A stretch of DNA of 64,000 nt from Bacillota bacterium (GTDB lineage Bacteria > Bacillota > Clostridia > Oscillospirales > Oscillospiraceae): the NCBI GenBank assembly GCA_021768085.1, contig JAETOJ010000008.1:1-64000 (forward strand), written 5' to 3'. Shown piece by piece: positions 140-40,088 of this stretch; the stretch's first letter is position 1; every line of letters begins with the position of its first letter. The notes under the pieces were generated by a model that was not told where the DNA came from, made no database searches, and saw only the letters and a program-made list of their open reading frames with translations. Made by a program: the position numbers and the translations under genes.

Positions 140-199
140 TTGTTCCATTGTTTGTTTAACCGTTTCCGGCGCTTGCCCTTCCCGGCCGTCCCTCCACCA

Positions 200-1139: not shown

Positions 1140-1168
1140 TTGCAACCATGGTTGATTTCCATTATAAT
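1140..1168 (+). promoter_or_regulatory. Predicted sigma-A promoter for the 1.2-5 kb genes
   Basis: TTGCAA at 1140-1145, a 17-base spacer and a perfect TATAAT at 1163-1168. It lies about 58 bases before the phosphopantetheinyl transferase start and could drive the thiolase operon. Nothing else convincing was seen in the 842-1225 gap. Confidence 0.6.
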
Positions 1169-1225
1169 TGTAGAAAAAGCAGCCCTTTTTTTGTGCATTT
1201 TCCAATCGAGACGAGTTGATTCCAA

Positions 1226-1834
1226 ATGCATTCCATTCGGCTTCTTTTAGCGGACGCCCATGTGCTTGCGGGCAGGGAGGCAGAAAGCCTACCCCTACTT
1301 CCCCCAAACCGTCGGAGGGAGGCCGCCGCGTTCTGCTCGGACGACGCACGTTTGCTCTGTTGTGCCGCCGGGCTGCTGTTGCGCAGGGTACTGGGCGTGA
1401 CACGGGACGAGGATCTGGCCATCGGCCCCCTGGGGAAGCCTGCGCTGACCCGGGGCGGCGCGGCATTCAGCCTGTCCCACGCCGGACACTACGCGGCGCT
1501 GGCGGTAAGCGGGCAAACGGTGGGGGTTGACGTGGAGCCCATTCGGCCGCCCGCCGCGTTTCCACGCAAGGTGTTTACCGGGGCGGAGCTGGACTGGCTC
1601 TCCTCCCATCCCGGGCCGGAGGAATTCTGCCTGCTCTGGACCCGACTGGAAAGCGCCCTGAAGGCGGAGGGCTGCGGGCTGGCGGGAGCGCGCCGTGCAT
1701 TCTCCCTTTTGGAGCCCGGCGCGCCATGGCACTGGGAAAGCGTGCGCTATGACGGCCATTGGATCACCTGCGCTGCACGCTCGCCGGCGGAGCTCCGGTT
1801 CACGGTACTGTCCGCCGCCGACCTGCTCCGATAA
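1226..1834 (+). CDS. 4'-phosphopantetheinyl transferase (Sfp type)
   Basis: A 202-residue transferase that would move 4'-phosphopantetheine from CoA to the serine of a carrier protein. Visible family motifs are FSLSHAGHYAALAVS (81-95), GVDVEPI with Mg-binding Asp102 and Glu104, and WTRLESALKAEG (139-149) with Glu142 and Lys146, the counterpart of the usual WxxKEA/S-xxK block. The length matches compact Sfp/AcpT-like enzymes. It opens the cluster, 52 bases before the thiolase-like gene and 1.9 kb before a carrier-protein gene, so its natural client is probably that carrier. No polyketide or peptide synthase is in the window. The start is supported only by position; its ribosome site is weak. 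Confidence 0.85.
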   Translation: MHSIRLLLADAHVLAGREAESLPLLPPNRRREAAAFCSDDARLLCCAAGLLLRRVLGVTRDEDLAIGPLGKPALTRGGAAFSLSHAGHYAALAVSGQTVGVDVEPIRPPAAFPRKVFTGAELDWLSSHPGPEEFCLLWTRLESALKAEGCGLAGARRAFSLLEPGAPWHWESVRYDGHWITCAARSPAELRFTVLSAADLLR

Positions 1835-1886
1835 GCGGGGGCAGGCCAGAGCTTCAACAATTCAATCATAGAAAGGATGTATCCGC

Positions 1887-3203
1887 ATGAACCAGACCCA
1901 TCCAGGAAGGTACAGCAGAAGCGTGTCGATCATCGGCGTTGGCTGCACACCGTTCATGTATACGGTGGATAACCCCGAAACAAACGGCTTGACCGAGGGC
2001 GAGCTGTTCGGCTACGCGGCGCTGAAGGCCATGGAGGACGCCGGTATCACCGCCAAGGACGTGGATTTCTATTTCCACGGCGAGGCCAGCCCCCTCAACG
2101 GCTCCAACTACCTGACCCCCAACTCCCAGATCGCCAACTGGTTCGGCATGAAGGGCAAGGCGTCCATCCACCACTCCGAGGCCTGCTGCACCGGCTACCT
2201 GGCCATTGAGCAAGCCGTCAACGCCGTGGCCTCCGGCAAATACAACTGCGTGCTGTCCGGCTGTGTGGAGTTTGGGGACAGCACCCCCGCCCCTGCAGAC
2301 AACATCGAAACCAAAAAGCACCCCTACAAACGGGACAAGATGACCATGGAGCGGTTCCTGGCCACCACCCAGTGGCTGTATGACCGCAACTATGCCCGCA
2401 GCTTCATGGCCCCCATGGAGCTGATCTATGACGACGCGGCGGAGGACTACGTGCGCACCCGGGGCATCAGCGCCCAGGACATGGACGACACCCTGAACTG
2501 GATGGCCATCAACAACCGCCGCAACGCCGCCAAGAACCCCCTGGCCCTGGAGCGCAAGGAGTTTGCCGAGATCGCCAAGGAGGCCGGGTTTGACGATGTA
2601 ATGGCCTATATGCGCTCTCCCTACAACCCCCGGATGGGCGACTTCCTGCGGGCCGAGTGCATTGAGCGCAAGTGCGACGGCGCCGCCGCCTGCATCGTGT
2701 GCGCCACCGACCTGATTCCCCAGATCGCCAAGAACCTGAAGCATAAGCCCGTGGAGGTGCTGGGCATCGGCTGCTCCTGCATGGAGGCCACCAACCCTCA
2801 CTTCGAGATCCGGGCCACCGAGGAGGCCATTCGGCAGGTATACGAGGTCACCGGCGTGAAGCCGGAGGAGATCGACCTGTTCTTTGCCAATGACTTCATC
2901 ATCACCTCCCACCTCATCGCCGCCGAGATCGCGGGCTATCTGCCCTACGGCGAGGGCTGGAAATACATCTGCGCGGGGCGCACCGCTTACGACGGCGACA
3001 AGCCCATCAACACCAACGGTGGTCGGACCTCTTTTGGCCACGCCCACGCCGCCTCCGGCATGGCGGATGTCTACGAGGCCTGTATGCAGATGCGGGGCGA
3101 GTGCGGGGAGCGCCAGGTGAAGAAGCTGCCCAAGACTACCCTGCTGCGCGGGTACGGCGGCTCCCAGAACGTGGCGGCCGTGATGCTCCGGATTGCGGAC
3201 TGA
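1887..3203 (+). CDS. Thiolase-superfamily enzyme (SCP2/Ltp2-like)
   Basis: A 438-residue thiolase-fold protein. The segment HHSEACCTGYLAIEQA puts a cysteine (Cys100) where thiolases carry the acyl-accepting residue, and NTNGGRTSFGHAHAASG (375-391) gives the conserved C-terminal His385. The usual second catalytic cysteine near the C-terminus is not evident; that stretch reads LLRGYGGSQNVA. Proteins of this branch that pair with a DUF35 protein, as here (gene 24 bases downstream), include archaeal acetoacetyl-CoA thiolases, the Ltp2 steroid side-chain aldolases and the PhlC acyltransferase. It may therefore do thiolysis, retro-aldol cleavage or C-acylation. With a phosphate acyltransferase and butyrate kinase in the cluster, a cleaving, catabolic direction is the favoured inference. 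Confidence 0.8.
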   Translation: MNQTHPGRYSRSVSIIGVGCTPFMYTVDNPETNGLTEGELFGYAALKAMEDAGITAKDVDFYFHGEASPLNGSNYLTPNSQIANWFGMKGKASIHHSEACCTGYLAIEQAVNAVASGKYNCVLSGCVEFGDSTPAPADNIETKKHPYKRDKMTMERFLATTQWLYDRNYARSFMAPMELIYDDAAEDYVRTRGISAQDMDDTLNWMAINNRRNAAKNPLALERKEFAEIAKEAGFDDVMAYMRSPYNPRMGDFLRAECIERKCDGAAACIVCATDLIPQIAKNLKHKPVEVLGIGCSCMEATNPHFEIRATEEAIRQVYEVTGVKPEEIDLFFANDFIITSHLIAAEIAGYLPYGEGWKYICAGRTAYDGDKPINTNGGRTSFGHAHAASGMADVYEACMQMRGECGERQVKKLPKTTLLRGYGGSQNVAAVMLRIAD

Positions 3204-3227
3204 CGAATTTGACAGGAGGGTTGGATC

Positions 3228-3650
3228 ATGGCGATCAAATTGGAAAAAGTCGTTCAAAAGTTCTATGACAGCCTGGAGGAAGGGAAGATTTTAGGCCGCA
3301 AATGCCCTGCCTGCGGTGCGGTGGAGTTCCCGCCGGTCTACGCCTGCAACACCTGCGGCAACCTGGAGACGGAGTGGGTGGAGATCAGCGGCAAGGGCGT
3401 GATGAAGTCCATCGTCATGCCCGCCGCCCTGTCCTCTAAACCGGAGTACGACGCCCTGGGCGCCCGCAACTTCGCCTATGGCGAGGTGGAGCTGGCCGAG
3501 GGCGCCTGCCTCAACGCGGTGGTCAAGGGCATCAACAAGAAGAAGCGCAAGGAGATCATGGAGAAGGACCTGCTGCCCGTCCCCGTCCACGCGGAGATCT
3601 TCCAGCGCGACGGCTATAAGACCGTGGTGTTCGTGCTGGACGAGGAGTAA
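3228..3650 (+). CDS. DUF35 Zn-ribbon/OB-fold protein, partner of the thiolase
   Basis: A 140-residue protein with a rubredoxin-like zinc ribbon (Cys26, Cys29, Cys40, Cys43; CPAC and CNTC) followed by an OB-fold half containing the KGVMKSIV and EIFQRDGYKTVVF strands. This is the DUF35/ChsH2 architecture. In characterised systems it binds the thiolase-like subunit and helps channel or hold the acyl thioester. It directly follows the thiolase gene in the same operon with GACAGGAGGG as ribosome site, so a two-subunit complex is the natural reading. Nothing shows enzymatic activity of its own. Confidence 0.85.
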   Translation: MAIKLEKVVQKFYDSLEEGKILGRKCPACGAVEFPPVYACNTCGNLETEWVEISGKGVMKSIVMPAALSSKPEYDALGARNFAYGEVELAEGACLNAVVKGINKKKRKEIMEKDLLPVPVHAEIFQRDGYKTVVFVLDEE

Positions 3651-3705
3651 CCCTCCCGCTGTTCCAGCCAACTAAAATAAGAATGGATAAAGGAGCTTGA
3701 CACGT

Positions 3706-3945
3706 ATGGATCGCAAGGAACTGGAAGCGAAAATTCTGGAGCTGGTCTCCACCTCTTACAACAAGGACATCTCCACCCTGTCCATGGACACCCGGATCAA
3801 GGAGGATCTGGGCGGCGCCTCCGTGCTGATGGTGGGCCTGGTCTCCGAGATTGAGAACGAGCTGGACGTGCTGGTGCAGCTGCCCGTGGCCGCCGCCTGC
3901 AAAACCATCGGCGAGCTGGTGGACAAAACCGAGGAGCTGCTGTAA
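3706..3945 (+). CDS. Acyl-carrier-protein-like protein with variant site
   Basis: A 79-residue protein of ACP size and helix pattern. The usual DSL prosthetic-group motif is replaced by GASV within DLGGASVLMVGLVSEIE; the serine (Ser39) that would carry phosphopantetheine is kept but the preceding aspartate is alanine. The four-helix pattern and acidic helix 2 (LVSEIENEL) are otherwise preserved. The ATG at 3706 is chosen because AAAGGAG lies 10 bases upstream; an in-frame TTG at 3697 is too close to it. Position between the thiolase/DUF35 pair and the phosphate acyltransferase suggests it carries the acyl group between them. Whether it is modified by the nearby transferase is unproved. Confidence 0.75.
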   Translation: MDRKELEAKILELVSTSYNKDISTLSMDTRIKEDLGGASVLMVGLVSEIENELDVLVQLPVAAACKTIGELVDKTEELL

Positions 3946-3969
3946 TTCGGCGCGGAGGGAGTAACCGCT

Positions 3970-4977
3970 ATGGCAAATATTCTGGATCGGCTCTATGAGA
4001 AGGCCAAGCTGGACGTCCAGCGGGTGGCGTTCCCCGAGGCGGACAACGAGAAGATGATGCAGGCCGCCTATGAGTGCGGCCGGGACGGCTACATCGTCCC
4101 TATCCTGGTGGGCGACGCAGAGCAGCTCAAGGCCCTCTGCGCCCAGCGGGGCTATGACGAGGGCGTGTTCACCTTTGTGGACGTCAACAATGAGGAATAC
4201 AAAAACAAGCTGATCGCGGCCTATGTAGCCCAGCCGGGCCGCATCCTGAAGGAGAAGGCCCTGGGCCGCCGGATGGCGGATCCCCTGTACTTCGCCGCGG
4301 TGATGCAGGCGGTGGATGAGGCGGATGTGACCTTCGCCGGCATCAACAACACCACCGGCGACGTAATTCTGGCCGGCCAGATGGTGGTAGGGCTCCAGCC
4401 CGGCATCGCCACCATTTCCAGCATCGGCCTGTGCGACATCCCCGGCTATGAGGGCAGCGAGGGCTCCCTGCTGGCCATTGGCGACAGCGCGGTGTGCACC
4501 AACCCCAACGCCGAGCAGCTGGCCTCCATCGCCATCTCCGCCTGTGACACCGTCCGCTCCCTGCTGGACTGGGAGCCCCGGTGCGCCCTGGTGTGCTATT
4601 CCACCCGGGGCAGCGGCCAGGGCGAGCTCATTGACAAGGTGATCGAGGCGGCCAAGATCGCCAACCAGCAGCGCCCCGACCTGGCCATCGAGGGCGAGCT
4701 CCAGCTGGACGCCGCCATCGTCCCTGCGGTGGCCGCGAAGAAGGTCAAGGAGGACAGCCGCGTGGCGGGCAAGGCCAACGTGGTGATCTGGCCTGACCTG
4801 AACGTGGGCAACGTGGCGGTGAAGCTGATCCAGCAGTTCGGCCGCGCCGACGCCTACGGCCCCATGCTCCAGGGCTTCCAGAAGGTGGTGTGCGACTGCT
4901 CCCGGGGCGCGCCGGTCTCTGAGATCAAGGGCAATGTGATCATCTCCGCCGTGCGGGCGGCCGGAATGAAAAAGTGA
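3970..4977 (+). CDS. Phosphate acetyl/butyryltransferase family enzyme
   Basis: A 335-residue member of the PTA/PTB family, which swaps an acyl group between a thiol carrier and phosphate. The N-terminal RVAFPEADNEKMMQAA and the middle DVILAGQMVVGLQPG and CYSTRGSGQGELIDKV blocks fit the family, and the length matches single-domain phosphotransacetylases. Its acyl specificity cannot be read from sequence. In this cluster it would turn an acyl-ACP or acyl-CoA from the thiolase step into an acyl phosphate for the butyrate kinase at 12684. It starts 24 bases after the carrier-protein gene. It is distinct from the PduL-type phosphotransacylase in the eut operon. Confidence 0.85.
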   Translation: MANILDRLYEKAKLDVQRVAFPEADNEKMMQAAYECGRDGYIVPILVGDAEQLKALCAQRGYDEGVFTFVDVNNEEYKNKLIAAYVAQPGRILKEKALGRRMADPLYFAAVMQAVDEADVTFAGINNTTGDVILAGQMVVGLQPGIATISSIGLCDIPGYEGSEGSLLAIGDSAVCTNPNAEQLASIAISACDTVRSLLDWEPRCALVCYSTRGSGQGELIDKVIEAAKIANQQRPDLAIEGELQLDAAIVPAVAAKKVKEDSRVAGKANVVIWPDLNVGNVAVKLIQQFGRADAYGPMLQGFQKVVCDCSRGAPVSEIKGNVIISAVRAAGMKK

Positions 4978-4990
4978 ATCAAGCGTGACA

Positions 4991-5032
4991 AAAGCACCTC
5001 CCGCGGCTGGCTCAGCCATTGGGAGGTGCTTT
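4991..5032. repeat. Hairpin just before the MBL-fold gene
   Basis: Twelve-base perfect arms (4991-5002 and 5021-5032) enclose an inner GGCT/AGCC stem. There is no U-tract on the plus strand and the AAGGAG of the next gene follows within 4 bases. A processing or attenuation element is more likely than a plain terminator. Confidence 0.55.
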
Positions 5033-5043
5033 GGGAAGGAGCT

Positions 5044-5838
5044 ATGGCATTTTCATGGAAAGAAATCGCGCCGGGCGTGGGGCAGATCGGGGACGGCCAG
5101 GGTAATTTCTGCACCCTGCTCACCGGCAGCCGGAGCGCCGTTCTGTTTGACACCATGGTTGGGCTGGGCGATTTGAAGGGCTTTGTCGGCCGGCAGTGCC
5201 CCGTGGAGCCCATGGTGATCGCCAGCCACGGCCACTTCGATCACATTGGCGGGGCGCGCCAGTTTTCCCCCGTGTATATGAGCCCGGAGGATCTCCCGCT
5301 GCTGGAGGTGGGCCGGGGGCAGATTCCGGTGCTGGAGCAGACCCTGGGCCGGAGTCTGGACGGCATGGAGGAGAGCTTCCGGCCTGAGCGGTACCGGCCA
5401 ATCCGCCCCGGCCAGGTGCTGGATCTGGGCGGGATGACGGCACAGGTGGTGGATCTGTCCGGCCACACAGCCGGGAGCATCGGCCTGCTGTGCCGGGAGC
5501 TGCGGCTGCTGCTGGCGGGGGACGCGCTCTCCCCCCAGGCGTGCATTTTGTTCCCGGAGAGCCTGTCCCTGGAGCACTACGCCCGGATGCTGGATCGGGT
5601 GGAGCGGCTGCCCTTCGACCGGTTTTTGTCCGCCCATTTTGATATCGCGTTCCCCAGGCATATCATTCAGAGGTTCAGGCAGTGCGTTTCCCTGGTGGGT
5701 AAAAAGCGGGGCATGGAGTACGAGTTTGGCCCCCTGCCCTATATCAAGGGCCGGGTTTACGTGGGCGAGCCGCAAAACCGGGAAATCGGCCAGCTCATCT
5801 GCCTGATCACCAGACCGGACACGCCGCCACTGGACTGA
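5044..5838 (+). CDS. Metallo-beta-lactamase-fold hydrolase
   Basis: A 264-residue MBL-fold protein. The metal motif is complete: SHGHFDHIGG (His62, His64, Asp66, His67), a further His in LSGHTAGS and an Asp in LLLAGDALS. Such proteins include glyoxalase II-like thioesterases and lactone hydrolases. In this cluster a thioester or ring-opening hydrolysis is plausible but not shown. The start at 5044 follows AAGGAG closely. The preceding hairpin (4991-5032) may set its expression apart from the upstream genes. Confidence 0.8.
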   Translation: MAFSWKEIAPGVGQIGDGQGNFCTLLTGSRSAVLFDTMVGLGDLKGFVGRQCPVEPMVIASHGHFDHIGGARQFSPVYMSPEDLPLLEVGRGQIPVLEQTLGRSLDGMEESFRPERYRPIRPGQVLDLGGMTAQVVDLSGHTAGSIGLLCRELRLLLAGDALSPQACILFPESLSLEHYARMLDRVERLPFDRFLSAHFDIAFPRHIIQRFRQCVSLVGKKRGMEYEFGPLPYIKGRVYVGEPQNREIGQLICLITRPDTPPLD

Positions 5839-5958
5839 TCGGCTTCATCTACCGTCCTTTCCGGATGGAGTGTCCCGCAAATAGGGCGTCTTATCACACG
5901 AAGGCAGCCGCCGACTTCGATTAGGCGGCACAGGCGGTTTAAAAAAAGGGGGGTCTTT

Positions 5959-7272
5959 ATGGCAGCGGAGGTGGCACGGGAAAAGGTTGAGAGCACCAAG
6001 CATAAGCTGTTTCACGCGCTTCAGTCAAAATATTCCCTGAAGTATTACCTGGATCTGGTGTATGACGTCATTCATTTGGAGCTGAACCTGTGCGACACCA
6101 GCTACGGCTTTTTTGCCAGGGTGCCGAGCCCTGCCGGGGAGCACCCGGACGTGGACAGCTCCAATGGACGGCTCTACCTGAAATACGACATGAGCCAGAA
6201 CCTGGAGCTGAACCGGCACATTGACCGCGCGCTGGAGATCTCCGGCCCCTATGTGTGCCAGGACGACCGTTTCCCCTATGACATCGTTTTCCAGCCGGTT
6301 CGGATCAACCGGGCCATGGTGGCCTATCTGTTCAGCCCGGGGCGGCCGGAGGGATTTACCGACGTGGATCTGGAGCTCATCGACTTTCTGGCCCAGGTGC
6401 TGTCCATTGAGCTGCAAAAGAACGACAGCTTCGCGGTGGAGAGCGGCCTGAAATACGAGTATTTCCTTCAAGAGCTGATCGATGGCCATTTTTCCTCTGA
6501 TGAGTTTGCCGGGCAGCGCCTGCGCCAGCTGGGCCGCAAGCCCCAGCCCTACTATTATATGTTGCACTTTTCCTTTGACGATCCGGAGTCCATCCGCATT
6601 GCCAGAAGCCACTATTACGAGCTGCTGCGGGGCGCGTTCCCGGACGGCCTTGTGGGGGTGGTGCGGGGCAGGCTGTATCTGCTGCTGCCCCGCGACGCGC
6701 CCAGCCCGCTGAACGGCAGGGAGCGCCAGGCCCTGCTGAAGTTCCTGACACTGAACCGGATCCGCTGCGGCATCAGCTATTACTACACCTCCCTGGTCAT
6801 GTCCCATTACGCCGCCCAGCAAGCGGTGGCCAGCGTCAGCCAGCCCACTGCCGGCGAGTATATCTACAGCTATGAGCAGGAATTCCTGTATCATATCTTT
6901 TCCCAGGGAATGAGCCAGGATTGGCTTCAGTCCCAGATCTTCCCGGATCTGCGGCTTCTCCGCGCCCATGATCAGACCTACCATACGGAATTCGTGCACA
7001 CCCTGCGCACCTATATTCAATGCTCGCGCAACGCCACCAACGCCGCCGTCCAGCTCCACATCCATAAGAGCACCTTCTTCTACCGGATGAGCAAGATCGC
7101 CGATCTGCTGGGGACGGATATTTACGACGGCAGGCGGCTGTTCGCCTATGAATTCTCCTTTTACCTGATTGATTATCTGAAAAGGGGAAGCACCCCCAAG
7201 GAGGGACCGGTCGGCACAGGCACGTCCGGCGGCGGAGTAGTTCCGACGAACGTAGTAAAACCCACAGATTAA
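5959..7272 (+). CDS. PucR/CdaR-family transcriptional regulator
   Basis: A 437-residue regulator. The C-terminal part (about 345-400; YIQCSRNATNAAVQLHIHKSTFFYRMSKIADLLG) is the HTH_30 DNA-binding domain of PucR/CdaR proteins. The N-terminal 170 residues look like a ligand-sensing GAF/PAS-type domain, without clear signature residues. PucR-type proteins usually activate neighbouring catabolic genes when a substrate binds. Its place between the thiolase half and the redox half of the cluster makes it the likely switch for both. A clear terminator follows it, so the downstream genes need their own start. Confidence 0.85.
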   Translation: MAAEVAREKVESTKHKLFHALQSKYSLKYYLDLVYDVIHLELNLCDTSYGFFARVPSPAGEHPDVDSSNGRLYLKYDMSQNLELNRHIDRALEISGPYVCQDDRFPYDIVFQPVRINRAMVAYLFSPGRPEGFTDVDLELIDFLAQVLSIELQKNDSFAVESGLKYEYFLQELIDGHFSSDEFAGQRLRQLGRKPQPYYYMLHFSFDDPESIRIARSHYYELLRGAFPDGLVGVVRGRLYLLLPRDAPSPLNGRERQALLKFLTLNRIRCGISYYYTSLVMSHYAAQQAVASVSQPTAGEYIYSYEQEFLYHIFSQGMSQDWLQSQIFPDLRLLRAHDQTYHTEFVHTLRTYIQCSRNATNAAVQLHIHKSTFFYRMSKIADLLGTDIYDGRRLFAYEFSFYLIDYLKRGSTPKEGPVGTGTSGGGVVPTNVVKPTD

Positions 7273-7288
7273 ATTGATAAAGTTTTGA

Positions 7289-7321
7289 CAGCCATCGGAT
7301 GACGAATCCGGTGGCTGCTTT
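7289..7321 (+). terminator. Rho-independent terminator after the PucR-type gene
   Basis: Twelve-pair stem (7289-7300 with 7306-7317, one G-U) with a 5-base loop, followed by CTTTTAT. It separates the regulator from the flavodoxin-like gene. Confidence 0.75.
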
Positions 7322-7492
7322 TATAATAAACAATGATGCACAAAACAGGCCCGCTTTCCTTCCGTATTTTATGGAAAACTCACATGGAAGGGCGGCCGGT
7401 TTGTTCATTGGGCAACTCGGAATCATTCTGTGCAAGGGGCAAACATCACAGCACACGCGGCAGGGCCGTGCAACAGATTAGGAGGAAAAAAC

Positions 7493-8443
7493 ATGGCATT
7501 TAAGGTAATGGGAATGACCGCAGGCCGAAAGGACAGCAACAGCGAGATTTTGCTGAAGGAGGCACTGTACACCTGTCAGGAGCTGGGGGCGGAGGTCACC
7601 TTCGTCAACCTGCGGGACTACAGCATTGAGGACTGCACCGGCTGCACCTTCTGCACCCAGGGTATGTTCATGAAGGGCGAAAACGTGGGGTGCGTGCTGA
7701 AGGAGAAGGACGACAAGGAAAAGCTGATGCAGGCCCTATTTGACAACGACGCCTTCATTTTCTCCGCGCCTACCTATGACCTTCAGGTCTCCGCCAACTT
7801 CACCCGGTTTATGCAGCGCTCCCTGGCCTATGAGACCGCGTTTCTGGAGAAGATCGGCGCCATCAAAACCCGCCACCGCGTGGCCGGCCTGATCGCCACT
7901 GGCGGCTCCACCCGGGCCTGGATGTCCCAGACGCTGGAGAATATGCAGGCCGCTATGTTCACCTGCGACTTCCACGTGGTGGATATGCAGCTGGCCACCC
8001 GGATCCCTGCCAAGGCCCATGTGCTCACCCGGCCCGACCATCTGGAGCGGGCCCGCAAGCTGGGCCAGAACATCATGGCCTCCCTGTCCAAGGCCCCCGA
8101 GGATCGGGGCTGGGAGGGCGACCCGGATATGGGCTGGTGCCCCCACTGTCATTCCAACGCCCTGGTGCTGGGTGAACCCCAGTGGGACGGCATCCACTTC
8201 AAGGTGGAGTGCCAGGTGTGCGGCTGCGGTGGCGACCTGGAAAAGGGCCCGGACGGCAGGTGGAAGTTCGTCATCGATCCGGAAATCGGCTACTGCCGGG
8301 ATCGCACCACTGCGGAGGGCCGGGGCCACCATCTGGAGGAGATCGGTGCCACCGAGGGCGCGTTCTACCGCGACCCGAAGAACATGGAGCTGGCGGAGGC
8401 AAAGATCGGCCGCTACAGGGAAATGAAGTTCAAAACAGTGTAA
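7493..8443 (+). CDS. Flavodoxin-like (NADPH-dependent FMN reductase family) protein with Zn-ribbon tail
   Basis: A 316-residue protein. The first 190 residues have the flavodoxin-like fold of WrbA/FMN-reductase proteins: an FMN-phosphate loop (GMTAGRKDSNSEI), a cysteine-rich DCTGCTFC segment and the SAPTYDLQVSANFTRFMQR block. The last third adds CPHCHSN and CQVCGCGG pairs, a zinc ribbon or rubredoxin-like site not typical of plain WrbA. The start at 7493 has TTAGGAGG 7 bases upstream. It leads the redox half of the cluster, 37 bases ahead of the flavoenzyme, and may pass electrons to it or act on the substrate. The substrate is not known. Confidence 0.8.
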   Translation: MAFKVMGMTAGRKDSNSEILLKEALYTCQELGAEVTFVNLRDYSIEDCTGCTFCTQGMFMKGENVGCVLKEKDDKEKLMQALFDNDAFIFSAPTYDLQVSANFTRFMQRSLAYETAFLEKIGAIKTRHRVAGLIATGGSTRAWMSQTLENMQAAMFTCDFHVVDMQLATRIPAKAHVLTRPDHLERARKLGQNIMASLSKAPEDRGWEGDPDMGWCPHCHSNALVLGEPQWDGIHFKVECQVCGCGGDLEKGPDGRWKFVIDPEIGYCRDRTTAEGRGHHLEEIGATEGAFYRDPKNMELAEAKIGRYREMKFKTV

Positions 8444-8480
8444 TTCTGACGTTTTTTATAATGTAAAGGAGATATTTGAC

Positions 8481-9962
8481 ATGAAAAAAATGGAAGCTGA
8501 CGTCATTGTCGTAGCCGCCGGTCTGTCCGGCATGGCCGCCGCCTGCGCCGCTGGCGAGGCCGGCGCCAAGACCTTGGTATTTGAAAAGGCCAACACCACC
8601 GGCGGCGCAGCCAACATGGCCATGGGCCCCCTGGGCGTGGGCTCCCGCATCCAGCGGGAATCCATGGTGTCCATCACCCCGGGCGAGGCCTTCCGCAAGC
8701 ATATGTTCTTCACCCACTACAAGGTGGACGCTCGCCTGGTGCGCGACTACTACTTCAAGTCCGGCGACACCATCGACTGGCTGGAGCGTATGGGCGTGGA
8801 GTTTGCCGGCGTGCAGCGGGCCTTCTCCGCCCCCGAGGCCACCCGTCCCTACTCCGACGGCGAGTTCACCTGGCACGTGGTAAAGCCCGAGGGCGGCGGC
8901 ATCCCCGGCCCCCGCGCCGCCACCGCCATGATGAAAAAGATGACCGAGTACGCCATGGAGCAGGGTGTGGAGTTCTGCCTGGAGACCCCGGTGAAGAAGC
9001 TGATCAAGGAGGACGGCGCCGTGGTGGGCGTCATCGCCGTGGACGCCCAGGGCGATGAGATCGAGGCCCGGGCCCCCAGCGTCATCATCGCCACCGGCGG
9101 CTTTGGCGCCAACCCCGAGATGATCAAGGAATACTGCGGCTTTGAGTACGGCAAGACCATCAACAACTTCGCCGTCCCCGGCATGGTGGGCGACGGCCTC
9201 AAGATGGCCTGGGAAGTGGGCGCCGCCAAGACCCCTATCATCATGGAGATCATGTACCAGCTGCCCGACAACCTGAACCACTTCTATATCGAGGGCGCCT
9301 TCCGCCAGCCCTGCCTGTGGGTCAACCGCAACGGCCAGCGCTTTATGCCCGAGGATCAGATCGGCAACACCACCTTCACCGGCAACGCCCTGGCCGCCCA
9401 GCCCGGCAAGATCGGCTTTGCCATCTTCGACGCCAGGCTGCTCAAGCGCTATAAGAAGAAGGGGCCGGACATCGTCTCCCACGTCCACCCCCATGACCTG
9501 TACGACCACTTTGAGGAGCAGTGGGAGCGGGATCTGGCCGCCGGCTACGAGCCCATCTGTCAGGCGGACACCATCGAGGAGCTGGCGGAAAAGGCCGGCA
9601 TCGACGTGGAGGGCCTGAAGGCCCAGGTCGAGGAGTACAACGAGATGTGCGAGGCGGGCTACGACGAGGTGTTCGAGAAGGAGCGCCACTACATGGAGCC
9701 CATCGCCAAGGCCCCCTTCTACTGCTGCCGCCAGACCGTGGGCGCCTACGGCTCCCTGGGCGGCATCAAGATCAACCACAAGATGGAGGTGCTGGACGAG
9801 GAGGCCCATGTGATCCCCGGCCTGTACGCCGTGGGCACCGACGCCTGCTCCATCTATGGCGACACCTATCCGTTCACCCTGCCCGGCAACACTATGGGCT
9901 TCTGCGTCAACTCCGGCCGCATTGCCGGCGAGAACGCCGCCGCCAAGGTTGCGGAGTTCTAA
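8481..9962 (+). CDS. FAD-dependent fumarate-reductase-like oxidoreductase
   Basis: A 493-residue FAD_binding_2 protein of the fumarate reductase/3-ketosteroid dehydrogenase group. Visible are an N-terminal dinucleotide fold, the VIIATGGFGANPEMI block and the C-terminal LYAVGTDACSIYGDTYPFTLPG and GRIAGENAA segments. The first glycine of the usual GxGxxG is alanine (VAAGLSG). No signal peptide, heme motif or FMN-attachment domain is present, so it is cytoplasmic. Such enzymes reduce activated double bonds in fumarate, urocanate, cinnamates or steroids. Neighbouring electron-input proteins suggest it is a reductase. The substrate cannot be deduced. Confidence 0.85.
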   Translation: MKKMEADVIVVAAGLSGMAAACAAGEAGAKTLVFEKANTTGGAANMAMGPLGVGSRIQRESMVSITPGEAFRKHMFFTHYKVDARLVRDYYFKSGDTIDWLERMGVEFAGVQRAFSAPEATRPYSDGEFTWHVVKPEGGGIPGPRAATAMMKKMTEYAMEQGVEFCLETPVKKLIKEDGAVVGVIAVDAQGDEIEARAPSVIIATGGFGANPEMIKEYCGFEYGKTINNFAVPGMVGDGLKMAWEVGAAKTPIIMEIMYQLPDNLNHFYIEGAFRQPCLWVNRNGQRFMPEDQIGNTTFTGNALAAQPGKIGFAIFDARLLKRYKKKGPDIVSHVHPHDLYDHFEEQWERDLAAGYEPICQADTIEELAEKAGIDVEGLKAQVEEYNEMCEAGYDEVFEKERHYMEPIAKAPFYCCRQTVGAYGSLGGIKINHKMEVLDEEAHVIPGLYAVGTDACSIYGDTYPFTLPGNTMGFCVNSGRIAGENAAAKVAEF

Positions 9963-9975
9963 GCGGGAGGCAGGC

Positions 9976-12090
9976 ATGGTAAAGCTGACAATCGACGGCC
10001 AGGCGGTGGAGGCCCGGGAAGGCCAGTCGGTGCTCCACGCGGCGCTGGATGGTGGAATCTACATCCCCCATCTGTGCGACCACCCCGACCTGGAGGCCAA
10101 AGGCGGCTGCCGCCTGTGCAGCGTCACGGTAAACGGCGGCCAGATCCCCGTCCCCGCCTGCACCACCATCGTGGAGGAGGGCATGGTGGTGGACAGCCGC
10201 AGCGAATCAGCGGAGGCGGTGCGCCGCACCTCCATGGAGCTGATGCTGGCCACTCACCCCGCCGACTGCACCGGCTGTCCCAAGTATGGCAAGTGCGAGC
10301 TGCAGAGCATCTATCAGTACATGGGGGTCAACGGCCAGGACTGGCGGCAGAAATCCCGTCCCGTCCCCACCGACGAGAAGAACCCCCTGATCTCCCACCT
10401 GTTCACCCGCTGCATCCGGTGCGGGCGCTGCATCCGCGCCTGCCAGGACAAGCGGGGGGTCAAGGTGCTGGAGTACATCCGCGACAGCAGCGGCGTCCAC
10501 GCGGGCGTGCCCGAGGGCAAGAGCCTGGCGGACGCGGGCTGCCGCTTCTGCGGGGCGTGCATTGAGGTGTGCCCCACCGGCTCCATTATGGACGCAGTGG
10601 GCATTATGGGCAAGCACCAGTCCTACGCGGACGACGTGGTGCCCTGCCGGGCGGAGTGCCCCGCCCACATCGACATACCCGCCTACATCCGGGCCGTCCG
10701 GGAGGGCCGGCCCGGGGATGCCCACGCCATCATCCGGGAGAAGGTGCCCTTCCCCCTGGTGCTGGGCCACATCTGCAACCACCTGTGCGAGACGGGCTGC
10801 AAGCGCACCGAGCTGAACGACCCCATGGGCATCCGAAATCTGAAGCGCTTCGCCGTGGAGCACGACACCGAGCAGGCGTGGAAGTCCAAGGGCTTCCAGA
10901 AGCCCCGCACCGACAAGCGGGTGGCAGTCATCGGCTCCGGCCCCTGCGGGCTGACCGCCGCCTATTATCTGAACAAGCTGGGCCACGATGTCACCGTGCT
11001 GGAGAAGCGGCCCCAGCTGGGCGGCCCCATGACCAGCGGCATCCCCGGCTACCGCCTGCCCCTGGAGGGGGTCATGGAGGAGATCCGGTACATCATTGAC
11101 AGCGGCGTGAAGTACGAGGTCAACCGGGAGGTGGACAACGCCGCCGCCCTGCGGGCCGACTATGACGCGGTGCTGGTGGCAGTGGGCGTATCCAAGGGCC
11201 GCAAGCTGCCCCTGCCCGGGGCGGAGCTGCCCCAGGTACACACCGCCATGGACGTGCTGGCGGACAGCCGGGCCGAGGCGGATCTGTCCTGCCTGGGCCA
11301 GACCGTGTGCGTCATCGGCGCGGGCTCCGTAGGCTATGACGTGGCCCGCTCCCTGGTGCGGAGCGGCATGACGGTGAACCTGGCCTGTATCGAGCAGGCG
11401 GACAAGATCCTGGCGGACAAGGACGACCAGGAGGAGGGCGCCCAGGAGGGCGTGAACCTGTTCCCGGGCCGCTCCTTCGAGGAGATCGAGGCCGCGGACG
11501 GCAAGGTCACCGGCCTGCGAGTGCACACGGTGCTGTCCTCCACCTACGACCGGGCCACCGGCAAGGTCACCGAGGTGGCAGAGGAGGGCAGCCAGATGGT
11601 GATCCCCTGCGATAGCGTGGTGTTTGCCACCGGCCAGCACACCGGTTTGCAGGATTACGCAGACTTCGGCATCGAGCTAAACAGCCGGGGCTACCCCGTG
11701 ATGGACGGCTTCAAGACCTCCGAGGACGGCATCTTCGCCGCCGGAGACGCCATCACCGGCATCAGCTTTGTCATCAAGGCCATCCAACAGGGCCGCGAGG
11801 TGACGGCGGAAATCGACCGCTATCTGGGGGGCGACGGCCAGATCGACGAGGCCCTGGTGGAACGGGCCGCAAATCCCTACATCGGTCAGGCGGAGGGCTT
11901 CGCCGCCCTGCCCCGGGTGGAGCAAGAGCTGCGGGACGCCTCGGAGCGCACCGCCGACAACATGGATGTGTACCATACCTACACCTGCGAGCAGGCCCAG
12001 TGCGAGTCCAGCCGCTGCTTACAGTGCGATCTGCGCCTGCAATTCCAGCGGGTGAAGCTGTGGAACGAATACGGAGGTGACAACGGATGA
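9976..12090 (+). CDS. Ferredoxin-NuoG-like/GltD-like NAD(P)H electron-input fusion
   Basis: A 704-residue fusion. Residues 1-75 are a [2Fe-2S] domain (Cys34, Cys45, Cys48, Cys62). Then come a NuoG/hydrogenase-type His-Cys3 cluster region (HPADCTGCPKYGKC) and two [4Fe-4S] motifs (CIRCGRCIRAC, CRFCGACIEVCP). From about 215 it is a glutamate-synthase-small-subunit-like module with an FAD fold (VAVIGSGPCGLTAAYYL) and a second nucleotide fold (VCVIGAGSVGYDVA). It would oxidise NAD(P)H and pass electrons down Fe-S clusters, probably to the adjacent flavoenzyme. Its end overlaps the next gene (ATGA), pointing to a complex of the two products. The start at 9976 follows GGGAGG. Confidence 0.85.
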   Translation: MVKLTIDGQAVEAREGQSVLHAALDGGIYIPHLCDHPDLEAKGGCRLCSVTVNGGQIPVPACTTIVEEGMVVDSRSESAEAVRRTSMELMLATHPADCTGCPKYGKCELQSIYQYMGVNGQDWRQKSRPVPTDEKNPLISHLFTRCIRCGRCIRACQDKRGVKVLEYIRDSSGVHAGVPEGKSLADAGCRFCGACIEVCPTGSIMDAVGIMGKHQSYADDVVPCRAECPAHIDIPAYIRAVREGRPGDAHAIIREKVPFPLVLGHICNHLCETGCKRTELNDPMGIRNLKRFAVEHDTEQAWKSKGFQKPRTDKRVAVIGSGPCGLTAAYYLNKLGHDVTVLEKRPQLGGPMTSGIPGYRLPLEGVMEEIRYIIDSGVKYEVNREVDNAAALRADYDAVLVAVGVSKGRKLPLPGAELPQVHTAMDVLADSRAEADLSCLGQTVCVIGAGSVGYDVARSLVRSGMTVNLACIEQADKILADKDDQEEGAQEGVNLFPGRSFEEIEAADGKVTGLRVHTVLSSTYDRATGKVTEVAEEGSQMVIPCDSVVFATGQHTGLQDYADFGIELNSRGYPVMDGFKTSEDGIFAAGDAITGISFVIKAIQQGREVTAEIDRYLGGDGQIDEALVERAANPYIGQAEGFAALPRVEQELRDASERTADNMDVYHTYTCEQAQCESSRCLQCDLRLQFQRVKLWNEYGGDNG

Positions 12091-12653
12091 ACGACAAGCT
12101 GTTGAAGCTCTCCGAGACACAGTGCCCGGTGGACGAGCTGCTGCGTTATGTCCGGAGCCACAGGTGCCTGGACTGCGGCAAGTGCGTGTTTGGCTACGAG
12201 GGCGCGGCCCAGCTTGAGCTGACGCTGACCGACATCACCATGAAGAAGTCCCGCTCCACCGACCTGGCCCAGCTCACCAAGGTGTGCCGGTACATGAGGG
12301 AGCAGTCCCTGTGCGACGACGGCGTGGAGCTGGGCGATACCGCCCTGGCGGTGTTCGAGCAGTACGGCGATGAGTTTGCCGCCCATGTGGCCAAGAAGGG
12401 CTGCAAGGCCGGGGTGTGCAAGAGCTTTGTCACCTACCACATCCTGGCGGATCGCTGCGTCGGCTGCGGAGACTGCGTGGACGAGTGCGAGGACGACGCC
12501 ATCCTGGGTAAGAAAAAGTTTATCCACGTCATCGATCAGGACGAGTGCACCCAGTGCGGCAAATGCCTGTCCGCCTGCGAGGAGGACGCCATTGTCAAGG
12601 CCGGGGCCGTCAAGCCCCGTTGCCCGGCAAAGCCCATCCCCTGCAAACGGTAA
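12087..12653 (+). CDS. NuoF/HymB C-terminal-like iron-sulfur protein
   Basis: A 188-residue protein that resembles only the C-terminal Fe-S part of NADH-dehydrogenase/NADH-dependent hydrogenase subunits (NuoF/HymB). It has a CLDCGKCVFGYEGAAQL cluster block, a GCKAGVCKSFVTYHI segment and two ferredoxin motifs (CVGCGDCVDECEDDAI, CTQCGKCLSACEEDAI). The FMN/NADH-binding part of NuoF is missing, so NAD(P)H oxidation must come from the translationally coupled upstream protein. Together they look like a soluble electron module built from NuoG, GltD and NuoF pieces. The start overlaps the previous stop. Confidence 0.8.
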   Translation: MNDKLLKLSETQCPVDELLRYVRSHRCLDCGKCVFGYEGAAQLELTLTDITMKKSRSTDLAQLTKVCRYMREQSLCDDGVELGDTALAVFEQYGDEFAAHVAKKGCKAGVCKSFVTYHILADRCVGCGDCVDECEDDAILGKKKFIHVIDQDECTQCGKCLSACEEDAIVKAGAVKPRCPAKPIPCKR

Positions 12654-12683
12654 ACCGAAACTTAGGAGGCTGAAGGAACGGCT

Positions 12684-13787
12684 ATGAAAATTTTGACCAT
12701 CAATCCCGGCTCCACCAGCACAAAAATCGCCCTGTTTGAGGGGGAAACGGCCCTGTTCACCGCCAACGTGTCCCACGACGCCGCCGAGCTGGCCAGGTAC
12801 CCGTCCATCAGCGATCAGCTCCCCTACCGGGAGCAGACCATCCGGGCGCTGCTGGCGGAGAACGGCGTCAGCCTGGACGGACTGTCCGCCGTGGTGGGCC
12901 GAGGCGGCGGGCTGATCGCCATGGAGGGCGGCGTGTACGCCATCGACGCACTGCTGCTGGATCACGCCGCCCGGGGCGCCAACGGCGTGCAGCACCCCGC
13001 CCAGCTGGGCCCTCAGCTGGCAAAAAAGCTTTCCGACGAGATCGGCTGTCCCGCCTTTGTCGTCAACCCGCCGGACACCGACGAGCTCCAGGACGTGGCC
13101 CGGGTTACCGGCATCAAGGGCGTGTACCGCAACGTCCACCTCCACGCCCTGAACCTGAAGGAGACCGCCATCCGCCATGCTGCGGGCCTGGGCAAACGGT
13201 ACGAGGACTGCAATTTCGTGGTGTGCCACATCGGCGGCGGCGTGTCCATTTCCGCCCATCAGAAGGGCCGCATGATCGACGGCTGCGACATCGTGGGCGG
13301 CGAGGGCCCCATGGCCCCCACCCGCTGCGGCTCGGTGCCCGCCGCGGAGCTGATTGACTATTGCTTCTCCGGGGTGGACAAAAAAAACGCTAAGGCCCTG
13401 TGCACCAAGTCTGGCGGCTTTGTCAGCCTGCTGGGCACCTCCGACGCCATCGAGGTGTCCCGGCGGGCCGCGGAGGGCGACAGGGTGGCCTGGCTGGCCT
13501 GGAACGGCATGATCTACCAGATCATCAAGGAGATCGGCGCCATGGCAGCGGCCCTCCACGGGCAGGTGGACGGCATCCTGCTGGGCGGCGGCATGGTGCA
13601 CAACAGGGAGCTGGTGGAGCAGATCACCGGGGCCTGCACCTTCATCGCCCCTGTCTCCGCCTACCCCGGCGAGTTTGAGATGGAGGCCATGGCGGCGGGG
13701 ACCATTCGCGCCCTGAAGGGCGAGGAGCAGGTGCGCAGCTACACCGGAGAGCCTGTGTTCAAGCAGTTCAAAGCCATGCTGGAGTGA
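12684..13787 (+). CDS. buk: Butyrate kinase
   Basis: A 367-residue acetate/butyrate kinase-family protein of the butyrate-kinase branch. It opens with the ATPase motif ILTINPGSTSTKIALFEG, and has NPPDTDELQDVARVTG, FVVCHIGGGVSISAH, DIVGGEGPMAPTRCGSVP and GILLGGGMVHNRELVE. It makes ATP from an acyl phosphate and ADP. Its likely donor is the product of the phosphate acyltransferase at 3970, although the genes are 8 kb apart. It follows the NuoF-like gene by 30 bases with TTAGGAGG. The true substrate could be butyrate, a branched acid or an aryl-alkanoic acid; sequence does not decide. Confidence 0.9.
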   Translation: MKILTINPGSTSTKIALFEGETALFTANVSHDAAELARYPSISDQLPYREQTIRALLAENGVSLDGLSAVVGRGGGLIAMEGGVYAIDALLLDHAARGANGVQHPAQLGPQLAKKLSDEIGCPAFVVNPPDTDELQDVARVTGIKGVYRNVHLHALNLKETAIRHAAGLGKRYEDCNFVVCHIGGGVSISAHQKGRMIDGCDIVGGEGPMAPTRCGSVPAAELIDYCFSGVDKKNAKALCTKSGGFVSLLGTSDAIEVSRRAAEGDRVAWLAWNGMIYQIIKEIGAMAAALHGQVDGILLGGGMVHNRELVEQITGACTFIAPVSAYPGEFEMEAMAAGTIRALKGEEQVRSYTGEPVFKQFKAMLE

Positions 13788-13982
13788 GCACCGCGAGGTT
13801 TTGGGGGAGCGCCATCCCCCTCGGCCCACGATACTTTGAGGGAGGAGGTGGTCTATGGGCAATAGCGCAGCTCGTGCAGGATCAGAAAGACGAGCCCGCG
13901 TGCGGCCGGCAGGCCGTGAACCGCGTCTTTTTGAAGGGTCGAACGAAACTACGCAACAAATCATGATCAGAGGAGAGAGATT

Positions 13983-15326
13983 ATGCAAAACAACGTAAAA
14001 GGCTTTGGCTTCCGCGGCTGGATGCTGATGATCTATCAATTCCTGGCCAACTTGTCCATGGTAGTGTTCACCAACTACCCCATGAACGCCCTGTCTCAGA
14101 TCTACAGCCCGAAGAATCCCCAACTGCTGTCCATGCTGTTTACCGTGTCCATGGTGGTGGGCATCGTGATCCAGCTCATCCTGTCCGCCAACATCGGCAA
14201 GGTCAAGAGCGTGAAGAACCTGAGCATCGCCATCGGCGTGGCCGCCATGGTGTTCTCCGCCGGCGTCATGCTCATCAAGCCCGACCTACAGGGCGGCAAT
14301 CTGGTGGTGCCCTGGGCGGTGTGCTATTTCATGTCCTGCCTGCTCATCATCATCTGGTGCACCTTCGTCATCGGCGTGCTCATCGGCCAGTGGTTCCCCC
14401 GCCGCAAGGGCACCGTCATGGGCCTGGTTACCATCGCCTTCCCCCTGGGCAACGCCCTGCTGAACGTGTTCATGAAGCTGACTATGGGCGGCGGTATGCC
14501 CAACCCCACCGCCGGCTTCCTGCCCTTCTTCATCGTCACCTGTGTGGGCATCCTCATCGGCATCGTGTTCATCACCGACTATCCCGAGCAGTGCGGCGCC
14601 TACCGCGACAATGACAAGAGCATGACCCCGGAGATCGCCAACGCCATGATGATGCAGGAGATCGAGGACAAGAAGCACACCGTTTGGACCATCGGTAACA
14701 CTTTCAAGTGCCCCGACTTCTGGCTGATCACCCTGCCCGCCGGCATGATGCTGTTCGGCTCCGTGGGTATGATGACTCAGACCGCTGGCGTCATCGGTTC
14801 CTATGGCTACGGCGCCGACTCCAAGGAATTTGGCCTAATCATGCTGGGCGTGGCCGTGGTGGCCATCATTGGCTCCACCCTGCTGGGCCTGCTGGACACC
14901 AAGATCGGCACCCGGAAGGCCATGATGGCCGCCTTCGGGTTCATGATCGCCTCCGGTGTCATCGGCGCCATTCAGCAGTTCCCCTGCATGGTTATCGCCA
15001 TGCTATTGCTGGGCGTGTTCATGGGCGCCTCCTCCAACTTCACCGTGTCCGCCGCTGTGCAGTACTGGCGTCGTGAGGATTTCCCCTCTGTGTTCGCCCG
15101 GGTGAATCCCATTGCCAATCTATGCCAAGCCGTGGCCCCCGTGATCCTGGTGGCCATCCTGTCCAGTGTGGGCTACCATGGCGACTTCATTCTGGTGGGC
15201 GTCATGGGCGTGGTGAGCATGATCATGGTGGCCATGGTTAAGCCCGACCGCATTAAGGCGATGGACGACAAATACCGCACGGCCGCCGGCAAGTCTCTGG
15301 ACGACGCCCTGGTGGGCCGCAAGTAA
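13983..15326 (+). CDS. MFS transporter (oxalate/formate antiporter-like)
   Basis: A 447-residue, 12-helix major facilitator protein. The loop WFPRRKGTVMGLVTIAFPLG after helix 4 resembles the OFA/monocarboxylate branch, as does the second-half GLLDTKIGTRKAMM loop. OFA-type carriers exchange or import small carboxylates. It ends the catabolic cluster and is followed by a strong hairpin, so it most likely brings in the cluster's substrate or exports its product. The ribosome site GAGGAGAGAG precedes the ATG. Confidence 0.8.
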   Translation: MQNNVKGFGFRGWMLMIYQFLANLSMVVFTNYPMNALSQIYSPKNPQLLSMLFTVSMVVGIVIQLILSANIGKVKSVKNLSIAIGVAAMVFSAGVMLIKPDLQGGNLVVPWAVCYFMSCLLIIIWCTFVIGVLIGQWFPRRKGTVMGLVTIAFPLGNALLNVFMKLTMGGGMPNPTAGFLPFFIVTCVGILIGIVFITDYPEQCGAYRDNDKSMTPEIANAMMMQEIEDKKHTVWTIGNTFKCPDFWLITLPAGMMLFGSVGMMTQTAGVIGSYGYGADSKEFGLIMLGVAVVAIIGSTLLGLLDTKIGTRKAMMAAFGFMIASGVIGAIQQFPCMVIAMLLLGVFMGASSNFTVSAAVQYWRREDFPSVFARVNPIANLCQAVAPVILVAILSSVGYHGDFILVGVMGVVSMIMVAMVKPDRIKAMDDKYRTAAGKSLDDALVGRK

Positions 15327-15365
15327 GCCGCACCTGCACTGGAAGCATCTATAGAGCAAAACGCG

Positions 15366-15396
15366 CCCCCGCCCTCCCGCTCCGGGAGGGCGGGGG
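15366..15396 (+). terminator. GC-rich hairpin ending the catabolic cluster
   Basis: Perfect 14-base arms (15366-15379 and 15383-15396) with a 3-base loop, 40 bases after the transporter stop. A U-tract is lacking, so it may rely on stem strength. Apart from this hairpin and the promoter at 15554, nothing is seen in 15327-15657. Confidence 0.65.
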
Positions 15397-15553
15397 TCAG
15401 CATATCTCAGCGCATCTTGATCCCCTTGGAGCAAGGTTCTGGGCTCCGGGGATTTTCCAGCTGCGGCAAAGCCCTCCCAATAAAAACAATATTGATGACA
15501 ACCTATCTGGTGCCGCCCTTAATTCACTCTCCGCCCCGCGCCAAAAACAGCCC

Positions 15554-15600: not shown

Positions 15601-15657
15601 TTGTGTGGGCGCATTCACAAGCAGGTGGTGCCGGCCCGCACACCGGGGGGAAGTTTC

Positions 15658-17723: not shown

Positions 17724-17726
17724 AGA

Positions 17727-40084: not shown

Positions 40085-40088
40085 ACGC

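Follow-up and report, generated by a model that had tools for sequence, protein, structure and literature searches.

Among the described systems closest to the locus reported here are some that deal with plant polyphenols. In Clostridium butyricum, the proposed genes for flavone reductase (FLR), the flavanone-cleaving reductase Fcr and phloretin hydrolase (Phy) lie side by side, and in the accessible literature that we found, polyphenol cleavage takes the form of hydrolysis by phloretin hydrolase. The anaerobic phloroglucinol pathway – with PGR, DPGC, TfD and TAL as its enzymes in the accessible part of PMC10470551 – carries polyphenol breakdown through to acyl phosphates and acyl kinases. Here we describe a cluster of 13 genes at positions 1226-15326 of a 64,000-nucleotide stretch of DNA (G000:C72:1-64000, hereafter the window), itself a piece of a 2.94 Mb draft genome. 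Best read as an accessory catabolic cluster of gut Clostridia, it joins two predicted ene-reductases to a thiolase-type cleavage unit, an acyl carrier protein and enzymes that may turn the released acyl group into an acyl phosphate and ATP.

The gene cluster and its proposed pathway

A sequence-only reading of this DNA had described 13 co-directional genes with named families; all are present on the + strand, and scans of their products with Pfam and NCBIfam-type profiles agree. The gene starts at 3706, 7493 and 9976 (for the ACP, the FMN reductase and the NuoG/GltD fusion) are improved ones, and that of the MBL hydrolase at 5044 was picked by eye from the sequence.

1226-1834, + strand: 4'-phosphopantetheinyl transferase (PPT), Sfp-like (ACPS PF01648, 48.7 bits)
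1887-3203, + strand: THL, a DUF35-associated thiolase-superfamily protein of 438 aa (Pfam Thiolase_C_1, 102.6 bits)
3228-3650, + strand: DUF35-type zinc-ribbon partner of THL (zf-ChsH2 PF12172, 36.6 bits; weak BbsA match)
3706-3945, + strand: acyl carrier protein, ACP (PP-binding PF00550, 28.6 bits, cut-off 20.8)
3970-4977, + strand: phosphate acyltransferase (PTA) of the PTA/PTB family (PTA_PTB, 272 bits)
5044-5838, + strand: metallo-beta-lactamase-fold (MBL) hydrolase (Lactamase_B, 52.3 bits)
5959-7272, + strand: PucR-type transcription regulator (HTH_30, 57.6 bits; GGDEF_2, 33.1 bits)
7289-7317, + strand: terminator-like hairpin separating the two halves, with an overlapping promoter-like site at 7299-7327 (consensus matches only)
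7493-8443, + strand: predicted FLR-like FMN ene-reductase with the FMN reductase fold (sole PDB match at E <= 0.01, FLR 7D38)
8481-9962, + strand: FRD, a probable FAD ene-reductase of the FrdA/flavocytochrome c superfamily (FAD_binding_2, 185.9 bits)
9976-12090, + strand: fusion of a NuoG N-terminus with GltD, predicted Fe-S and flavin electron-input subunit (Fer2_4, NADH-G_4Fe-4S_3, Fer4_20, Pyr_redox_2)
12087-12653, + strand: Fe-S subunit with a NuoF C-terminal 4Fe-4S domain and a 4Fe-4S ferredoxin domain (NADH_4Fe-4S, 45 bits; Fer4, 45.8 bits)
12684-13787, + strand: acyl kinase of the butyrate kinase family, BUK (TIGR02707, 387.7 bits, cut-off 289.1)
13983-15326, + strand: MFS transporter (MFS_1, 72.7 bits; weak oxalate/formate-antiport match, 25.3 bits)

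The last gene had been taken for an OFA-like carrier: it belongs to MFS, and its match to the oxalate/formate type is weak. In the DUF35-type protein the scans detected zf-ChsH2 alone, the OB domain not being reported at E <= 0.001, and among the 13 genes they gave no CoA ligase or CoA transferase family.

Intergenic gaps are small inside the PPT-MBL and FLR-BUK blocks and measure 120 bases before PucR, 220 before the FMN reductase and 195 before the MFS gene. At 12 pairs, the hairpin between PucR and the FMN reductase is the longest terminator-like one in the region; as a class, such hairpins are no more numerous than in shuffled sequence (8 vs a mean of 11.1). The cluster is thus laid out as what are probably two to four transcription units, likelier than a single 13-gene operon. 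An Rfam search of window positions 1-20000 gave no match.

We give the following chain, taken as a whole, a probability of roughly 0.5. The FLR-like FMN enzyme and FRD would reduce C=C bonds in a conjugated substrate, probably a polyphenol of the flavonoid or chalcone type, with electrons from NAD(P)H arriving through the NuoG/GltD and Fe-S subunits. The cysteine of the THL/DUF35 pair would then attack the ketone of the reduced product and free the other half of the molecule – for example, the phloroglucinol-type ring of a dihydrochalcone – and the acyl group would pass to the phosphopantetheine of the dedicated ACP, which PPT would have charged. Phosphorolysis of the acyl-ACP by the PTA-family enzyme would yield an acyl phosphate, and the butyrate-kinase-family enzyme would convert this into ATP and the free acid, with the MFS protein carrying substrate in or product out and PucR regulating the set. 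The gene anatomy fits this chain, whose outline – double-bond reduction, cleavage of a C-C or thioester bond, an acyl phosphate and from it ATP – the sequence-only reading had already proposed. That reading had also known of no described pathway with this set, and full-text literature searches, excluding most subscription papers and all preprints, gave no description of the gene combination. What the sequences themselves show is which genes and families are present, how they are linked, the kinship with FLR, the altered fumarate-site residues and the CocE substitution described below; the individual reactions, their direction, the choice of ACP over CoA and the class of substrate are inferred from these. 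The alternatives discussed below overlap with this reading and with one another, and their odds do not sum to one.

Conservation and linkage of the two halves

All 13 genes recur in identical order in G030, a genome of a different genus of the same family, as seen on two overlapping contig pieces (L023 and L024). Identity to the window is 94% for the thiolase, 96% for the ACP and 92% for the flavoenzyme, with a range of 89-96% across the thiolase, ACP, DUF35, PTA and flavoenzyme proteins; PPT (65%), PucR (66%) and MFS (56%) are less similar. Such a pattern is as expected for an operon with a strongly constrained catalytic core.

More widely, 296 thiolase relatives were confirmed among 317 candidate stretches in a collection of 84,980 genomes. 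The best 80 of the 296, chiefly metagenome-assembled genomes and isolates labelled Lachnospiraceae, Oscillospiraceae, Blautia, Butyrivibrio and Pseudobutyrivibrio, were kept for locus comparison and, with 10 additional loci, make up 90 loci, many of them on contigs that end early. One of the 80, L050, is probably the G030 contig again, and there the two results are not independent. Genes were counted by tblastn, hits covering <30% of the query being discarded, instead of from open reading frames, which give erroneous gene calls in GC-rich loci (the window's own row included). Counts for 'long loci' refer to the 38 of at least 20 kb, with the 42 shorter ones of the 80 excluded.

Across the 90 loci, THL is found in 90, DUF35 in 87, ACP in 81 and PTA and BUK in 75 each, compared with 47 for the FLR-like gene (window query), 34 for the Fe-S subunit, 32 for NuoG/GltD and 28 for FRD. 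Nearly all long loci (37 of 38) hold the complete core of THL, DUF35, ACP, PTA and BUK, and these five genes lie on one strand in 65 of the 66 loci that have them all. An FLR-like gene is present in 29 of the 38 long loci (any of three queries), and FRD, NuoG/GltD and the Fe-S subunit occur together in 18. As a small control, the rest of the window (44.8 kb) was searched with the same queries and gave 0 hits. Because the whole ordered set recurs in G030 and the core is widespread, the 13-gene arrangement is not due to chance.

FRD and THL are both present in 28 of the 90 loci and on one strand in every one of them (28/28), with FRD upstream of THL in 21 and downstream in 7. The linkage has thus been kept through rearrangement, which indicates joint function. 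That the thiolase-DUF35-ACP-PTA block and the flavoenzyme block belong together, as the sequence-only reading held, is borne out by these loci, and the gene maps support treating the two halves as one functional set. The outcome that reading had named as pointing to separate operons, halves that never co-occur in other genomes, is contradicted by the 28 loci. The opposite view, namely that two unrelated operons merely adjoin, draws on the 220-base gap with its hairpin, on the 9 of 38 long loci in which the core occurs without FLR-like gene or FRD, and on L143 (from G056), an 18.5 kb stretch that carries the FLR-like gene, FRD and electron subunits but gives no hit for thiolase, DUF35, ACP, PTA or kinase. 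The core is therefore not tied to these reductases, and the reductase half can stand alone. A chance neighbourhood was rejected on the G030 order, the co-occurrence and the shared strand, and the unrelated-operon view is further contradicted by L142, which retains FLR, FRD and the electron subunits together with ACP, PTA and kinase; we regard that view as very improbable. A serine recombinase gene at window positions 200-817 adjoins the cluster, and L143 contains a homologue of it with 59% identity.

Within the family, FRD is found at E <= 1e-100 in 20 of 400 genomes and with at least 71% identity in six, among them G000 and G030 with the adjoining thiolase core and G707 with the CocE version described below. 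In G646, FRD occupies a 4.5-kb contig and the core another, with an Fe-S gene at its edge, so that adjacency of the two is possible; in G054, the FRD contig is just 4 kb long. The window's own genome has, at E <= 1e-5, two FLR-like stretches and one FRD.

The thiolase itself is an accessory gene in the family to judge from its distribution, being found in 11 of 400 genomes at E <= 1e-50, its own included. It was not found in two same-genus genomes, nor in seven of eight other listed genomes of that genus; the eighth, G707, has a thiolase of 54% identity on a contig separate from the L142 cluster. Viral contigs gave no match to it. Broken remnants of a thiolase/DUF35 pair are seen at L025 3900-5000 (G106). 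A diverged version occurs at L046-L048. Its thiolase has 48% identity, its FrdA-type flavoprotein is another one (Pfam on L047), and it also has an MFS carrier, a PucR-type regulator and a NuoG-like protein; a thioesterase-like protein and a ferredoxin were named by eye. The functions are similar to those of the cluster, the families different.

The reductases

The protein first called flavodoxin-like does have the FMN reductase fold, and its assignment is corrected to the FLR family, which makes it a predicted ene-reductase. It aligns with Flavonifractor plautii FLR (7D38) at E 1.7e-24 and 33.2% identity (87 of 262 aligned residues), over chain residues 2-277 of 310, or 89% of the chain. The 7D38 entry is named 'Cd1' and is one of four in the data statement of PMC7862272, corresponding there to F. 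plautii FLR. That paper defines FLR homologues by at least 30% identity, at least 80% coverage and E <= 1e-10 to F. plautii FLR, a definition that takes in the window's protein, and reports conversion of apigenin by all further homologues that were assayed (11 of 11). The reaction that marks the family is reduction of the C2-C3 double bond of flavones. Closer FLRs occur in the two related loci tested, L072 (E 9e-39) and L094 (E 6.4e-82).

FRD had been described as fumarate-reductase-like. Its superfamily stands, and use of a dicarboxylate is unlikely: at the six fumarate-site positions of the 1QO8 chain – which we take to be H365, E378, R381, R402, H504 and R544 of flavocytochrome c3 – FRD has Y, G, R, T, G and T, so that only the R381 type is retained and the other five of the six compared are changed. 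Reduction of fumarate or another dicarboxylate by FRD was rejected on these grounds. FRD is probably an FAD ene-reductase and not a fumarate reductase, and a neutral conjugated compound is the likelier substrate judging from these residues. Among NCBIfam models, it scores highest with VprA (vinyl phenol reductase, NF053717), at 341 bits against a cut-off of 600, and a vinyl phenol reductase proper was likewise rejected.

The thiolase/DUF35 cleavage unit

THL combines a thiolase fold, an invariant Cys and a neighbouring DUF35-type partner (present in 77 of 80 loci), which places it in the DUF35-partnered thiolase superfamily. Cys100, His385 and His64 are invariant in an alignment of 69 sequences, comprising the window's own and 68 of 80 distinct related thiolase sequences, with the partial second thiolase of L117 skipped. 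By motif and spacing, they would be equivalent to Cys88, His347 and His56 of PhlC, the phloroglucinol C-acylase, which works without CoA and whose Cys88 density – according to the accessible part of the report – appears acetylated after soaking with acylphloroglucinol.

An AlphaFold2 model of THL built from the 69 sequences has a mean pLDDT of 79, with weak loops. Its nearest folds include a Pyrococcus thiolase, SCP2-thiolases, BbsB (benzoylsuccinyl-CoA thiolase), an archaeal HMG-complex thiolase, PhlC and Ltp2, and MucABC is matched as well (TM-score by target 0.72-0.80 across the matches listed). In sequence, THL resembles CoA thiolases more than PhlC, with scores of 110 bits for 7yvy, 76 for BbsB and 48-49 for PhlC.

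The fold matches to PhlC and a MucABC subunit, together with an ACP and a PPT of the sort typical of biosynthesis, might suggest that the cluster runs in the opposite direction, with the kinase and PTA charging the ACP from a carboxylate and THL/DUF35 acylating an acceptor, much as in PhlACB and MucABC. Against this, the ene-reductases with their NAD(P)H-type subunits, and the glycosidase and C-deglycosidase homologues near some relatives, suggest breakdown, and the family scans of the 13 genes found nothing like PhlA, the third subunit. We consider a biosynthetic role improbable.

Carrier, acyltransferase, kinase and the CocE variant

The ACP is, by its profile scores, a dedicated carrier and not one of the fatty-acid-synthesis type: against TIGR00517 it scores 29.3 bits, below the cut-off of 70.45. 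The PTA protein likewise falls short of both the acetyl-specific model TIGR00651 (243.9 bits, cut-off 311.2) and the butyryl-specific model TIGR02706 (64 bits, cut-off 410.5), and may be an acyl-ACP:phosphate acyltransferase. The kinase passes the butyrate kinase cut-off of TIGR02707 by the scores given above.

A variant of the cluster shows which part is constant. L142, from G707 in the window's own genus, has a divergent MBL gene followed on the other strand by PucR (45% identity), FLR (78%), FRD (80%), NuoG/GltD, Fe-S subunit, ACP, a CocE/NonD hydrolase, PTA and butyrate kinase. It has no thiolase or DUF35 gene; the hydrolase stands in their place, next to the ACP, and the constant part is therefore ACP-PTA-kinase. 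At E <= 1e-120, this CocE has relatives in 14 of the 400 genomes of the family, and none in the window's own genome. Among 15 CocE loci, some of them short, ACP occurs in 8, PTA with kinase in 6, FRD and NuoG/GltD in 5 each, an FLR-type gene in 3, and the C-deglycosidase beta subunit in 2, as does thiolase/DUF35. The recurring theme appears to be reduction, an acyl-releasing enzyme, ACP, PTA and kinase, although few CocE loci show everything. The MBL hydrolase has homologues in 12 of 80 related loci.

A more conventional explanation is that the pathway runs on CoA, with THL/DUF35 as an ordinary CoA thiolase, PTA and kinase acting on acyl-CoA, and the ACP as a helper or relic. The PDB relatives of THL listed above include CoA thiolases, and PTA and acyl kinases normally serve CoA pathways, PTA enzymes using CoA as their usual acyl carrier. 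We nonetheless hold this to be unlikely: every one of the 38 long loci has an ACP, 19 of these also have a PPT or AcpS homologue (as do 29 of all 80 loci), and no CoA ligase or CoA transferase was seen among the 13 genes. It is also at odds with L042 3768-5921, where a single 717-aa frame has an ACP-like start ahead of CocE/NonD and is followed by AcpS, PTA and butyrate kinase homologues.

The wider proposal that arises from the carrier-based chain is more tentative than the chain itself: CoA-independent, carrier-protein substrate-level phosphorylation in gut Clostridia. The enzymes that release the acyl group would be interchangeable, with thiolase/DUF35 acting on C-C bonds and CocE/NonD hydrolases on acyl bonds of other kinds, and would load holo-ACP from unactivated plant polyphenols.

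Substrate and weight of the evidence

Several kinds of gene adjoin the core in some of the 80 loci: homologues of the beta subunit of a C-glycoside deglycosidase (4 loci), a GH106-like rhamnosidase (3), GH35/DUF5597 proteins (8) and an esterase (8), with Pfam run on one representative of each. TIM-barrel proteins (8) and oxidoreductases of the Gfo/Idh type (two queries, giving 10 and 11) were named by eye. Putative FLR genes are also reported, in the accessible part of the source, for C-deglycosylating Catenibacillus. These neighbours and FLR together point to plant polyphenol glycosides as candidate substrates; such neighbours are found in a minority of loci and lie outside the 13 genes. Phenylpropanoids, dicarboxylates, bile acids and steroids had been listed beforehand as possible substrates; dicarboxylates are disfavoured by the FRD residues, and the neighbours in some other genomes favour plant polyphenols. 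A DUF1097 membrane protein at L064 14827-15342, with homologues in 24 of the 38 long loci, is possibly a pathway transporter.

The same logic could operate on a non-flavonoid compound, such as a smaller enone or 1,3-diketone (a pyrone, or a vinylphenol-type or polyketide-derived molecule). This fits the top NCBIfam model of FRD, sub-threshold as it is, the absence of a glycosidase from the 13 genes, the remoteness of the FLR-like protein from FLR and the oxalate/formate-like MFS carrier, weak in the window and noted by eye in 18 of 80 related loci. Set against it are the recurrence of FLR-like genes and the C-deglycosidase, rhamnosidase and esterase homologues beside the same core in some loci, and we think it rather unlikely.

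Several observations weigh against the polyphenol chain. The window's FLR-like protein is just 33% identical to FLR, and polyphenol-glycoside genes accompany a minority of loci. The CoA habits of PTA enzymes, the sequence kinship of THL with CoA thiolases, the long loci lacking both reductases and the free-standing reductase half of L143 count in the same direction. So does a sample of 391 genomes of the class, which yielded at E <= 1e-20 the window's own thiolase and one 29% match, with no further orthologue; the sample may be thin, or a first look at it may overlook some, many relatives being found elsewhere in what is presumably the same class. A search for PF18089 (phloretin/DAPG hydrolase) gave no match in the window's own genome, with the control genomes equally silent.

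If the polyphenol chain is correct, polyphenol cleavage would pay the cell directly, with ATP gained by phosphorolysis through a carrier instead of lost by hydrolysis. Anaerobes would then have a possible reward for breaking down flavonoid-type compounds, and the recurrence of the gene set among Clostridia of gut and rumen would be explained. ACPs, along with relatives of PTA and butyrate kinase, would acquire a role in catabolism, and the set could serve to mark microbes with a possible capacity to release phenylpropionates and phloroglucinol-type products. The cluster is present in isolates, so the question is testable now; among those whose loci have both halves are Petralouisia muris NM01_1-7b (L097), Butyrivibrio sp. 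VCD2006 (L069) and Lachnospiraceae bacterium NK4A144 (L077).

Elsewhere in the window

Directly after the cluster, positions 15601-17723 encode a putative DNA-repair radical SAM protein and its TIGR03915 partner. A LuxC-family acyl reductase (PF05893, 172.7 bits), seemingly an unusual gene for a gut anaerobe, follows at 17727-19103 and adjoins another - strand gene at 18986-20110. On the - strand at 37694-54681 lies what by eye is an ethanolamine-utilisation microcompartment-like operon, with shell-protein-like open reading frames at, for example, 44907-45191 and 45219-45506.

Comparison with known systems

PhlACB and MucABC share with the cluster a thiolase-fold subunit and, for PhlACB, a DUF35-type zinc protein and C-acyl phenol chemistry; they differ in their PhlA-like subunit, in the ACP, PTA and kinase found here, and in the distance between PhlC and THL (48-49 bits). 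The BbsAB thiolase and the Ltp2-ChsH2 aldolase have the same thiolase/DUF35 pairing, but, going by PDB titles and general knowledge, use CoA esters, whereas no CoA ligase or transferase accompanies the pair here. The phloroglucinol pathway shares polyphenol breakdown to acyl phosphates and acyl kinases and differs in its cleavage enzymes; as a candidate for the cluster itself it was rejected, with PGR, DPGC cyclase, TfD and TAL all missing from the 13 genes, in line with the distinction already drawn from the sequence alone. Citrate lyase, malonate decarboxylase and glycine reductase are catabolic systems in which acyl thioesters are bound to a carrier or an enzyme, and in glycine reductase an acyl phosphate is formed as well; their enzymes differ from those of the cluster. 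To our knowledge, none of the three brings an acyl kinase together with an ACP and a PTA-family enzyme.

A further likeness is to FLR-Fcr-Phy of C. butyricum, Eubacterium ramulus and F. plautii, with which the cluster shares an FLR-family ene-reductase, a second reductase and an acyl-cleaving enzyme. There, Phy hydrolyses the C-C bond and the energy would be lost; here, it could be conserved as ATP through THL/DUF35 or CocE working together with kinase, PTA and ACP. By this analogy, the cluster is best read as an energy-conserving counterpart of the phloretin hydrolase set.

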